Source: Candidatus Woesearchaeota archaeon
GTDB lineage: Archaea > Nanobdellota > Nanobdellia > Woesearchaeales > GW2011-AR4
DNA: 40,540 bases
Assembly: GCA_016184145.1 (NCBI GenBank)
Contig: JACPDF010000033.1
Coordinates: 1 to 40,540 of the forward strand
Direction of reading: 5' to 3'
A model generated the notes under the pieces. The model did no database searches. It was not told the DNA's origin and saw only the letters and a list, made by a program, of their open reading frames with translations. Each line of letters starts with the position of its first letter. Position 1 is the stretch's first letter. The position numbers and the translations under genes are program-made. This document shows positions 4,585 through 22,844 of this stretch, piece by piece.

Positions 4585-4685
4585 GGGCCAGTAGCTCAGC
4601 TTGGATAGAGCGATAGCCTTCTAACGACTGGTTGATCTGGGAGTAAGCAAGCTATAGGTCCGGGGTTCAAATCCTCGCTGGCCCG
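4585..4685 (+). tRNA. tRNA-Arg(TCT), intron 4624..4649 in the anticodon loop
   Basis: Acceptor GGGCCAG/CTGGCCC, D-stem GCTC/GAGC, anticodon stem ATAGC/GCTAT, loop CTTCTA|A, T-arm CGGGGTTCAAATCCTCG, discriminator G; mature 75 nt. Confidence 0.93.
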
Positions 4686-9539: not shown

Positions 9540-11672
9540 ATGGAAATGGAAAAAAGAGGGATATTTTTTTTATTCTGCATGCTTATTCTGCTTATTTTAG
9601 CACCAAATGCGCTTTCCATCTACGAAGAGCTTCTGTTTTCAGATACTGTTGAAGATGGTGATGCAGTAAATATATCGGGAAAGGAATTTGAGTTTAGGAT
9701 AGACTACCAGAGCAGCAAGGTGTTCATAGAGATTGACGTTTCCGGATTAATAGTGGAAAGCGGACACTGCCAGATAAAAGACAACCTTCACATATGCGTG
9801 CAGAATGTTTCTTTCTCATACCGCAATTATGATCCTTGGTATGATGTCTACAAGGCTGAAGTAGAGATTTACCAGATAAAATCAAGTCTGGATGTAACGC
9901 ATACAATAAGCAAGGAGAACCTGTTGATAGACGAAGAGGCTACCGGAGTGCTGTCTTTTGATAATACGGCTGATATATCTGCAAAAGATGTCACGGCAAC
10001 TATGCCAATACCTTCAAATCTGATAATTACAGAAATAGAAGGCTGCAAGCAGACTGAAGGAATTATTTTGTTTAAGAATGATGTCACTCCAAGACAAATA
10101 AAGACATGCACCTACAAGGTCAAAGGCGTTTCTGGCGGTGATTATGAGCTTGGGGCGAATGTAACCTATTTTAATGGAGTGGAAACAGAAAGCATAATTC
10201 CCGGAGCCATAACAGGGAAGGTCTATAATTATTCCCTTAAAATAAAATATAATGCAAAGAGCAGCATGTTCAACATCTACGAAAAATTCAATCTAACTAT
10301 AGCGGCAGAAAACACTAATGACGAGCATGATCTTACTGTTACTGCATTAAGCGTAAAGATACCTGAAAGGCTGCTACTGGTCAAAGAGCCCAAGGAAATG
10401 ACCGGAACAAATAAGCTGCTGAGCTGGAGCGGACCTTTGAAGGCAAAGGAAAGCAGGAATTTCACAATGGAGCTGCAGTCATCGACAACTGGGGACTTTT
10501 CAATTATTGCTGATGCGAGCTATAAGATAAGCAAGTTTTTGCTGGAAACAGAGGAAAGTTTTGACGTTAAGGTTGACTGCCAATGCCCTTACATTGAGCA
10601 TGATTTCTCGCAGAATATTGTTGTTGCAGGACAGAGAGCAGTGCTTATAGCAGACCTCGTTAATCCAGGACCCAATGGTTTCAAGAATGTTAGGCTGAGT
10701 TATGTTACAGATGTTCCTGGAATAGAGCCAAAATCAACTACTTATAGCAGCATTAGGGCAGGAGAAAGGATAAGGGTGTTTGATTCTTCTGTAATTGCTC
10801 CTGGTTTAGGAGAGGCATATTACTTTAACGTGACTTCAGTTTATGAGTCGTCAGCAAACGAGGTTTTTATCAAAAAGAAAAGCATACAAATTGGAGTAAA
10901 CATTGCAGAAGTCGAGACAGAAGAAGAGGACCAGCAGCAAAATGAAGAGCAAATAGAAGAGAAAAAAGAGGAAAATGTCTCCTTGACTTCTGAAAAAATT
11001 GAGGAAATAAAGGAAGAGAAAGAAGAAGAGAAAAAAGAAGGAAAAAGCGAAGGAATGCCTGCGGTAACAATACAGGACGAGAAAAAAACGCCTTTTGTGG
11101 CATTTTTTGCCATCGCCTTTATTTTAGGCTTGGTACTATTTCTGGTTTTTCTTATTAGCCTGAAGAAGAAAAAGGGTTTGGTAAAAATAGGAGGGCCAGA
11201 ATCTATGGGTAAAAAAAGAGAGCGGCTAGAACAGGAGATAAAAGAATTTTTATCAAGTACTGCTGCAAAAAAAGAGACTAAGGTAAGACCCGAAATGGTC
11301 AATGATATTTTGAAAACGAGCGCTGACGACCTCTACGAGCTTGTTAAATCAAGGGAAAAAATTTCTGTCGAGGAAGCTGCCAAGCTGCTCAGGATGCCGA
11401 TAAATACTGTGCATGCATTGGTTGATTTTCTTGTTGAGGAGAAGATGTTTGGTATAGAGTACAAGTTTACCACTGCTTATATCTATATAAGCCAAGAACA
11501 TCCAAAAAGTGGAGAATCTTTCCAAGGCAGCTTCGCAAAAAACATGGCAGCAAAAGAGGAGACGGAATACGAAAACTTGGCAAAGCAGACGAGAGAAATT
11601 GGAGAAACCTTTGAAAAAGAAGAGGAACCAAAGAAAAAAGGATTTCTTGGAAGAGTCTTTAGGAAAAAATAA
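9540..11672 (+). CDS. Secreted/membrane protein with extracellular repeat domains, one TM helix and a C-terminal wHTH-like domain
   Basis: Signal sequence; DUF11/CARDB-like segments; Lys/Glu-rich linker; TM FVAFFAIAFILGLVLFLVFLISL; helical C-terminal SVEEAAKLLRMPINTVHALVDFLVEEKMFGIEYK. Confidence 0.72.
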   Translation: MEMEKRGIFFLFCMLILLILAPNALSIYEELLFSDTVEDGDAVNISGKEFEFRIDYQSSKVFIEIDVSGLIVESGHCQIKDNLHICVQNVSFSYRNYDPWYDVYKAEVEIYQIKSSLDVTHTISKENLLIDEEATGVLSFDNTADISAKDVTATMPIPSNLIITEIEGCKQTEGIILFKNDVTPRQIKTCTYKVKGVSGGDYELGANVTYFNGVETESIIPGAITGKVYNYSLKIKYNAKSSMFNIYEKFNLTIAAENTNDEHDLTVTALSVKIPERLLLVKEPKEMTGTNKLLSWSGPLKAKESRNFTMELQSSTTGDFSIIADASYKISKFLLETEESFDVKVDCQCPYIEHDFSQNIVVAGQRAVLIADLVNPGPNGFKNVRLSYVTDVPGIEPKSTTYSSIRAGERIRVFDSSVIAPGLGEAYYFNVTSVYESSANEVFIKKKSIQIGVNIAEVETEEEDQQQNEEQIEEKKEENVSLTSEKIEEIKEEKEEEKKEGKSEGMPAVTIQDEKKTPFVAFFAIAFILGLVLFLVFLISLKKKKGLVKIGGPESMGKKRERLEQEIKEFLSSTAAKKETKVRPEMVNDILKTSADDLYELVKSREKISVEEAAKLLRMPINTVHALVDFLVEEKMFGIEYKFTTAYIYISQEHPKSGESFQGSFAKNMAAKEETEYENLAKQTREIGETFEKEEEPKKKGFLGRVFRKK

Positions 11673-11673
11673 A

Positions 11674-11819
11674 CGCCGACGCCCGGACTTTCACCGATTT
11701 TTGGAAAAAATCGTTTTGAACCGAGATACCCTTGCGGGAACCAGCTTGCTAGTTGCCGTAAATTCGCAAAGCGAATTTAAACTCAAGGCTAGCGCAATGC
11801 CAGGTTATGCGACGTCGGC
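11674..11819 (-). tRNA. tRNA-Ser(TGA), class II, with introns at 11747..11781 (anticodon loop) and 11688..11714 (T-loop)
   Basis: Minus strand: acceptor GCCGACG/CGTCGGC + G73; anticodon stem CTAGC/GCTGG; long variable arm TTCCCGCAAGGGTAT; T-stem CTCGG/CCGGG; spliced T-loop TTCAAAT; mature 84 nt. Confidence 0.87.
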
Positions 11820-11918
11820 ATAAGAGAAAATAATAAAATTCGATTTAATATTAAATAGTTTTCGTATATTTAGTAGCGGACATAAATTATAGTTTATGAA
11901 TATTCTAGAATTAAAGCC

Positions 11919-12125
11919 CTATTTCTTCCCTTTTGTTTGCTTAGGAGGCAGTAAAACAGGTATTCCTTCCCTTATTGGGTATTTTTGGCTGCATTTAACG
12001 CATACAAGGCCTTTTTTGTCTTTAGTGTACCTTAAGTCAGCTCTGCAGAGCGGACAGGCCAAAATATCGAACAAATCCTTTGGAATCGGGTCCTTCATCG
12101 TGGTAAAGCTCTTAATTTTCAGCAA
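11919..12125 (-). CDS. Trm112 family zinc-binding protein
   Basis: FDILACPLCRADLRYTKDKKGLVCVKCSQKYPIREGIPVLLPP; real start may be the internal Met (MKDPIP). Confidence 0.85.
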   Translation of the reverse strand: MLKIKSFTTMKDPIPKDLFDILACPLCRADLRYTKDKKGLVCVKCSQKYPIREGIPVLLPPKQTKGKK

Positions 12126-14732: not shown

Positions 14733-14882
14733 TGGACCCGCCGAGACTTTCAAGCCATGTCTGGGACAAGGGCATTTGAACTCGGAGTTACTTCCCCGTT
14801 CGGCGCTTTGCGGCGAACGCCAGCGAATCTTTGATTCTAGCGCGTGCGAAGGAAGTGTCATGCCGGATTAGACCACGGGCCC
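14733..14882 (-). tRNA. tRNA-Ala(CGC) with introns at 14797..14844 (anticodon loop) and 14747..14774 (T-loop)
   Basis: Minus strand, spliced: GGGCCCGTGGTCTAATCCGGCATGACACTTCCTTCGCAGGGAAGTAACTCCGAGTTCAAATCTCGGCGGGTCCA (74 nt); contains G3:U70; canonical BHB at anticodon intron (TTCG/CGAA) and TTCA/TGAA helix at T-loop intron. Confidence 0.92.
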
Positions 14883-22204: not shown

Positions 22205-22844
22205 TCAGGTTAAGCATGGTACACCTCTGATACCATTGTGGTATCTGATATTGTTGTACCAAACAGACCATGCATTAATCTTGTCTTTGACCTTATCCTT
22301 AAAGGTTCTATTAAAGCGTTCAACATAATTCCTCTTGCCGCCATGCACTTCCTTATGCTTAATGTGCAATAGCCTGCAAGCCCATGGATACCATCCTGCG
22401 CCATCCGTTATTATACAAACTTTCTTCTTGTTCTTGCACTTTGTAAGAACATCCTTGATGAACCAAATGGCTACAGCTCCATTTCTTAGCCAGCTTACTT
22501 CTATGGCTATTAACTCTCTTGTATTAACGTCGGCAGCACACCATAAAAAAGCCCACTTGCCGTTTATCTTAATCTTGGTTTCATCTATGGCTATTACCTT
22601 TCTAGCCTTCTTTGGAGTGGTTTGTATGTACCCCATAACCTCTTGCCACTTAGCAATCCACTCATTGACAGACTGCTTTGCAATCTGTATTCCTCTTGTG
22701 TGGAGCAACTTTACAATGCTGCCTTGCGTTGCTCATGCAAACATCTGCAAGCAATAGAGTATCTTATCCTCTACTGCTATCTTGCGTTCTCTCACAAAAA
22801 TATTTAAGGCAGCACATATATTTGCTATTTGTGTGTATATCAAA
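22205..22844 (-). pseudogene. DDE transposase (IS6/IS240-like), interrupted by an in-frame TGA at 22733..22735
   Basis: Downstream part has D...D...E (AIDETKIKI, CIITDGAGWY, NYVERFNRTFKDK); upstream in-frame reading LIYTQIANICAALNIFVRERKIAVEDKILYCLQMFA*ATQGSIVKLLHTRGIQ. Confidence 0.75.

Follow-up and report, generated by a model that had tools for sequence, protein, structure and literature searches.

The multiple-intron tRNA genes of the Thermoproteales (Sugahara 2008; Fujishima 2010), in the secondary accounts of PMC4090602 and PMC4033280, carry BHB introns at canonical and non-canonical sites, up to three in one gene, with similar introns recurring across tRNA isotypes. Large-scale intron transposition is described for the same order (Fujishima 2010, as presented in PMC4090602 and PMC4033280). 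Position 59/60 is listed among the known archaeal intron sites, and the Nanoarchaeota are named as a rich source (PMC4090602). The accessible text of PMC11291895 describes Atabeyarchaeia and Freyarchaeia as non-thermophilic archaea in which most tRNA genes are interrupted, often non-canonically and several times; it reports neither intron transposition nor the type of endonuclease. Among splicing endonucleases, alpha4 EndA is reported to accept canonical BHBs only (PMC6379350, PMC4033280), and CSL/ASL-bearing enzymes accompany diverse introns (PMC6379350, PMC12397907, PMC4033280). Within the broad DPANN group, Nanoarchaeum equitans has disrupted tRNA genes and an (alpha-beta)2 EndA, Nst1 has an alpha4 EndA described as cleaving canonical introns only (both PMC4033280), and ARMAN-2 has an epsilon2 EndA, a three-unit protein with an ASL loop (PMC12397907).

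The lineage described here, from Woesearchaeota, shares with the Thermoproteales genes the sites 20/21, 29/30, 53/54 and 59/60 (listed in PMC4090602), up to three introns per gene and similar introns in different isotypes. It also recalls the Atabeyarchaeia and Freyarchaeia, which unlike the host are Asgard archaea. It differs from the Thermoproteales, as those accounts present them, in belonging to the DPANN, in a single EndA gene without the Crenarchaea-specific loop and in at least 14 tRNA genes interrupted at 59/60; from N. equitans in an alpha4-like EndA gene; from Nst1 in combining such a gene with many non-canonical introns; and from ARMAN-2, likewise a small DPANN archaeon with an EndA of the same superfamily, in a 192-aa single-unit gene that has no ASL-sized insertion relative to Methanocaldococcus jannaschii EndA. 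No description of tRNA introns in Woesearchaeota was found in the open-licence papers searched, and priority is uncertain. The kind of intron is already known; the genomic setting of the gene is the interesting part. We think it very probable that the locus is a functional single-copy tRNA-Ser(UGA) gene, that its introns are spliced by the single EndA and that its T-loop intron stems from a lineage-wide invasion of site 59/60.

Structure of the tRNA-Ser(UGA) gene

The host genome (1.02 Mb in 38 contigs, 97% complete) is that of an archaeon which we take to be a tiny symbiont. The window, meaning the whole 40,540-nt stretch that was analyzed (contig C36), encodes a TFIIB up to 99% identical to Woesearchaeota MAG proteins. 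On the minus strand, positions 11819..11674 begin with GCCGACG and end with CGTCGGC and G73; these are the ends of a tRNA gene, and the coordinates are exact. Judged by its sequence, the locus is a single-copy class II tRNA-Ser(UGA) gene with two introns. Its 5′ part reads GCCGACG TC GCAT AACCTGGCA TTGC G CTAGC CTTGAG up to the 37/38 intron, which is followed by A GCTGG TTCCCGCAAGGGTAT CTCGG TTCAAA, the 59/60 intron and T CCGGG CGTCGGC G. The features are, in the direction of the gene:

11820..11881, minus strand: upstream region with the TATA-like box CGAAAACTATTTAAT, a putative promoter by sequence comparison, common to orthologues G001, G006 and G007
11782..11819, minus strand: exon 1, tRNA positions 1-37 (acceptor 5′ strand, D arm, anticodon-stem 5′ strand CTAGC, loop CTTGAG with the TGA anticodon), matched by orthologues over q1-38
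11747..11781, minus strand: anticodon-loop intron at 37/38, 35 nt, TTTAAATTCGCTTTGCGAATTTACGGCAACTAGCA, absent from intronless orthologues reading CTTGAGAGCTGG
11715..11746, minus strand: exon 2, positions 38-59 (A38, anticodon-stem 3′ strand GCTGG, variable arm CCC-GCAA-GGG, T-stem 5′ strand CTCGG, T-loop TTCAAA), from the orthologue alignment
11688..11714, minus strand: T-loop intron at 59/60, 27 nt, ACGATTTTTTCCAAAAATCGGTGAAAG, absent from intronless orthologues reading GGTTCAAATCC
11674..11687, minus strand: exon 3, positions 60-73 (T60, T-stem 3′ strand CCGGG, acceptor 3′ strand CGTCGGC, G73)
11664..11673, minus strand: T-rich trailer TTTATTTTTT, a putative terminator, directly 3′ of G73

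The acceptor stem is paired at 7 of 7 positions and the T-stem at 5 of 5 across the T-loop intron. The variable stem CCC/GGG has a GCAA loop, and G18G19, U33, the anticodon UGA and G73 are present, giving the 7-bp acceptor stem, G73, long variable arm, TTCRANT T-loop, U33 and NGA anticodon of an archaeal class II tRNA-Ser. CCA is not encoded at the 3′ end.

At the level of sequence, comparison with orthologues is the decisive evidence for the gene, more so than the fold score (z = -3.7 for the whole gene relative to dinucleotide shuffles, with 1 of 200 shuffles as good). As a BLAST query, the spliced 84-nt sequence matched 58 of the 59 genomes (the host and its relatives; best E = 2e-26); several of the matches run unbroken across both junctions, and the exons are up to 98% identical to intact orthologues. 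In an intron-aware alignment, intronless orthologues (e.g. G025, G022, G031 and G007) read GCCTTGAGAGC and GGTTCAAATCC, with CTTGAGA followed by GCTGG at the anticodon-loop junction. Because these orthologues read through both junctions, the exons are fixed to the base at 37/38 and 59/60.

An earlier note, made from the DNA alone, had proposed a minus-strand class II tRNA-Ser(TGA) with a long variable arm, G73 and a perfect 7-bp acceptor stem, as the sequence and the orthologues bear out, and had put introns in the anticodon loop and the T-loop, where the orthologue readings CTTGAGA and TTCAAAT now locate them exactly. The 3′ strand of the anticodon stem, absent from that note, is placed at GCTGG (11745..11741). 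The ORF at 11509..11823 (+) that it called spurious most likely is so; it overlaps the end of a 710-aa ORF and the tRNA. A second intact tRNA-Ser(UGA) gene, which the note said would count against its reading, was not found in the 97%-complete genome; a match on contig C31 is tRNA-Ser(CGA) and a fragment match on C13 is not a tRNA. ARAGORN did not detect the gene in the window, and Rfam RF00005 missed it at the gathering threshold and at a permissive one.

The distance from the gene to the divergent TFIIB gene is 459 nt; at least 11 relatives have a tRNA-Ser-like gene at 445 to 1293 nt from theirs, in conserved orientation. Between the two in the window, 11919-12098 (-) holds a 59-aa ORF (MKDPIPKDLFDILACPLCRADL...) that is Trm112-like by eye. 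The ORF at 22205-22708 (-) looks by eye like a fragment of an IS-type transposase.

T-loop introns in the genome and among relatives

In this genome at least 14 tRNA genes carry a 59/60 intron, as found from weak Rfam matches and a search for the 59/60 pattern: Ser-UGA, Leu-UAA, Leu-CAG, Gly-CCC, Asp, Pro-GGG, Gln-CUG, Phe, Ala-GGC, Glu-CUC, Ala-CGC, Cys, Lys-UUU and Arg-CCU, with isotypes partly assigned by reading the sequence. All 14 have a T-stem of 5/5 and an acceptor stem of 7/7 pairs, and 13 have a central helix of 4/4. The stem pairings are independent evidence; the central-helix agreement is not, because the pattern with which most of these genes were found covers part of the intron 3′ end. 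ARAGORN called none of the 14 in unaltered form and 12 once the T-loop intron was taken out, compared with about 10% when random stretches of equal length were removed. Among the matches listed, the Rfam search placed 8 tRNAs of the genome above threshold; the count per genome ranged from at least 6 to at least 22 in the family and from at least 9 to at least 42 elsewhere in the order, in genomes that differ in completeness. The generic T-arm pattern GGTTCRANNC failed to tell tRNAs from background, and 59/60 pattern counts over 58 genomes were too noisy to map the trait by themselves.

Other interrupted genes were observed. The sole Rfam tRNA match in the window is a tRNA-Arg(UCU), read from its anticodon loop, at 4585-4685 (+), interrupted at 37/38 by an intron of about 26 nt. 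At 14733-14882 (-) the tRNA-Ala(CGC) gene, which has no ARAGORN or Rfam match in the window, carries a 48-nt anticodon-loop intron (placed by ARAGORN after T-intron removal) and a 28-nt 59/60 intron. In addition to the one at 59/60, the tRNA-Cys gene (L009, G000:C26) has an apparent intron of 13 nt at 8/9, with GAGG/CCTC as its central helix; the tRNA-Phe gene (L215) has an apparent third intron in the variable region.

Between relatives, intron gain or loss is seen at 20/21, 29/30, 37/38, 53/54 and 59/60. The 59/60 intron of the host's own tRNA-Lys (TATCCCGGAGGGCAGC...) recurs in the congener G001, both in tRNA-Ser(UGA) and in a tRNA on its contig C1 read as Gly(UCC) from the anticodon loop CTTCCA...; the two G001 introns are identical at 38 of 39 positions, and the host tRNA-Lys intron is identical to that of G001 tRNA-Ser at 36 of 39. 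A 103-nt intron of the host tRNA-Arg is identical at 92 of 103 positions to one in tRNA-Ser(GGA) of G015, a different genus; it has relatives among the 59/60 introns of G013 and G018, and its first part resembles 53/54 introns of tRNA-Ser(UGA) in G001 and G002. In shared introns the similarity ends at the intron borders. The lineage has the near-identical introns in different isotypes that mark transposition in the Thermoproteales, and the intron sequences indicate that in related species introns have moved from one tRNA gene to another. No copy of either of the two introns of the host tRNA-Ser(UGA) was found in another tRNA; its T-loop intron, too, would have arrived by transposition.

The 59/60 intron would accordingly be one member of a lineage-wide invasion, in which introns copied from one tRNA gene to another reach this site and later diverge or vanish. 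The alternative that survives best, and which we nonetheless consider improbable, is that the clustering at 59/60 reflects ancient, vertically inherited introns. Several tRNA-Ser 59/60 introns do share ends, such as GGTGAAAG or ATGCAAG. However, the two congeners have tRNA-Ser(UGA) 59/60 introns with no relation to each other (17 of 45 aligned positions), many orthologues are intronless, and the G001 tRNA-Ser intron matches, as given above, the introns of another tRNA of its own genome and of the host tRNA-Lys.

Two further observations concern these introns. The tRNA-Ser(UGA) genes of G001, G029 and G016 (L105, L098 and L114) have T-arm introns at both 53/54 and 59/60, with only the six exon bases TTCAAA between them. 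A core like TTGCCTGACTTAACA occurs across genera in 59/60 introns of L126, L198 and pattern matches in G002, G010, G014, G019, G025 and G033, including two introns from tRNA-Ser(GGA)-like genes; this points to a conserved function or to a family of mobile introns.

Geometry of the exon-intron junctions

The 59/60 intron of tRNA-Ser(UGA) has the 4-bp central helix (TTCA/TGAA, 4/4) and the two 3-nt bulges at the exon borders (AA|A and AG|T) of a BHB. Its inner helix has 8 bp, with one extra G adjoining; the earlier note had correctly described this 8-bp hairpin (CGATTTTT/AAAAATCG) and the GTGAAAG with which the intron ends. The hairpin that it saw in the anticodon intron (TAAATTCGC/GCGAATTTA) is also present, with 9 bp rather than 8, and the intron is, at 35 nt, longer than the hairpin. 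The relaxed central helix noted there holds as well: CTTG/CTAG has a T.T mismatch and 3/4 pairs, short of a strict 4-bp helix, and the inner helix is not directly stacked. In relatives, the 37/38 site holds introns of 12-38 nt in 12 other tRNA-Ser genes, and this relaxed form recurs in 11 of them.

Pairing was assessed in tRNA-Ser genes located by exon homology alone and compared with that in shuffled introns. At 59/60, 46 of 52 central-helix positions were paired (shuffled mean 21.6); 7 of 13 introns had a perfect helix and the other six, a related group, one mismatch each. At 53/54 the figures were 20 of 20 (shuffled mean 7.0), with 5/5 introns perfect, and at 37/38 they were 36 of 52 (shuffled mean 22.6), with 1/13 perfect. 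None of 20,000 shuffles was as good as the observed pairing at any of the three sites, a significance that is optimistic since the introns compared are partly related by descent. Across the family, the 37/38 introns have the relaxed form, and most T-arm introns are BHBs of strict or near-strict geometry.

All three placements of the anticodon intron remove 35 nt and leave a 7-nt loop, and after T-intron removal ARAGORN puts the cut at 35/36. A cut there (anticodon UGC) or at 36/37 (loop CTTGAAA) is nevertheless very unlikely: the CTTGAGA of intronless orthologues is reproduced by 37/38 only, and the class II shape and G73 fit serine, not the alanine of UGC. A decoy CTAGC inside the intron also matches the anticodon-stem 5′ strand. 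Pairing the 5′ anticodon strand with it gives a perfect 5-bp stem, but 10 nt then precede the variable stem and U33 is missing; the decoy was therefore rejected as the anticodon 3′ strand, the orthologues having GCTGG or an equivalent there. The tRNA-Gln(UUG) and tRNA-Ala(UGC) that ARAGORN called on some artificial splices go against the class II form, G73 and the orthologues.

A still smaller chance attaches to the locus being a decaying pseudogene with insertions, another tRNA reading UCA codons. The lack of ARAGORN and Rfam detection and the imperfect BHB of the anticodon intron would fit decay, but the stems are all intact, the exons match intact orthologues at up to 98% identity, the 97%-complete genome yielded no other tRNA-Ser(UGA), and the T-loop insertion site is repeated in 13 other tRNA genes. 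Least probable of all is retention of the T-loop insertion in the mature tRNA, which no tool result favors, since among orthologues the insertion varies from 13 to 111 nt while TTCAAA and T60 are constant, and its 3′ end can pair with T54-A57, which a BHB requires. Such an enlarged T-loop would disturb the D-loop/T-loop contact. With high confidence, the sequence comparisons identify the gene and both introns as real.

Splicing endonuclease and wider meaning

Searches of the genome with Pfam PF01974 and at the protein level turned up a single EndA gene (C4:28269-28844), coding for 192 aa. Aligned with the M. jannaschii alpha4 enzyme (1a79), its product shows 1-residue gaps only and no insertion at the CSL/ASL site, and Y128, H138 and K169, the catalytic Tyr-His-Lys, are invariant in 7 relatives. 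One gene, single-unit length, no CSL/ASL insertion and an intact catalytic triad make it resemble, by sequence, the alpha4 type; the closest solved EndA by sequence is the N. equitans alpha subunit (3iey_A). No recognizable homologue of a second (beta) subunit or of a three-unit EndA was found by the same genome searches. A second subunit would have been detectable, because several other genomes, among the 187 of the class scanned with PF01974, yield two matches each. An AlphaFold model of EndA (7 sequences) was confident only for the N-terminal domain and poor in the catalytic domain.

In the mechanism we favor, tRNA-Ser(UGA) would have a promoter of its own and give a precursor transcript of about 146 nt, the single EndA-type endonuclease would excise the BHB introns at 37/38 and 59/60, and ligation of the three exons would yield an 84-nt tRNA with anticodon UGA, T-loop UUCAAAU and G73. 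Of this, the sequences show the exons and their junctions (by comparison), the BHB pairing, the recurrence in the genome and the near-identical introns in different tRNAs of relatives. The T.T mismatch in the 37/38 central helix and the inner helix that is not directly stacked count against the full explanation, as does the canonical-only specificity reported for alpha4-type EndA. The lineage looks like an exception to the link between EndA type and intron position; the T-arm BHBs, most of them strict, might suit a narrow enzyme, and the relaxed 37/38 introns are the harder case for one.

The chances seem evenly balanced that mobile BHB introns, many of them at 59/60, have invaded the tRNA genes of this Woesearchaeota family much as in the Thermoproteales, with the family relying on a single alpha4-like EndA that lacks CSL and ASL. 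If so, either non-canonical positions need no broad-specificity endonuclease or the host EndA is broader than its type suggests, and the family would run against the current model of intron/endonuclease co-evolution. The system puts to the test the accepted association of intron diversity with endonuclease type. The gene itself illustrates how essential DPANN tRNA genes escape standard tools, with 8 listed by Rfam above threshold in this 97%-complete genome and at least 14 more hidden by T-loop introns. This lineage would join those in which copying between genes multiplies tRNA introns, and it is one whose close relatives catch gains and losses in the act.
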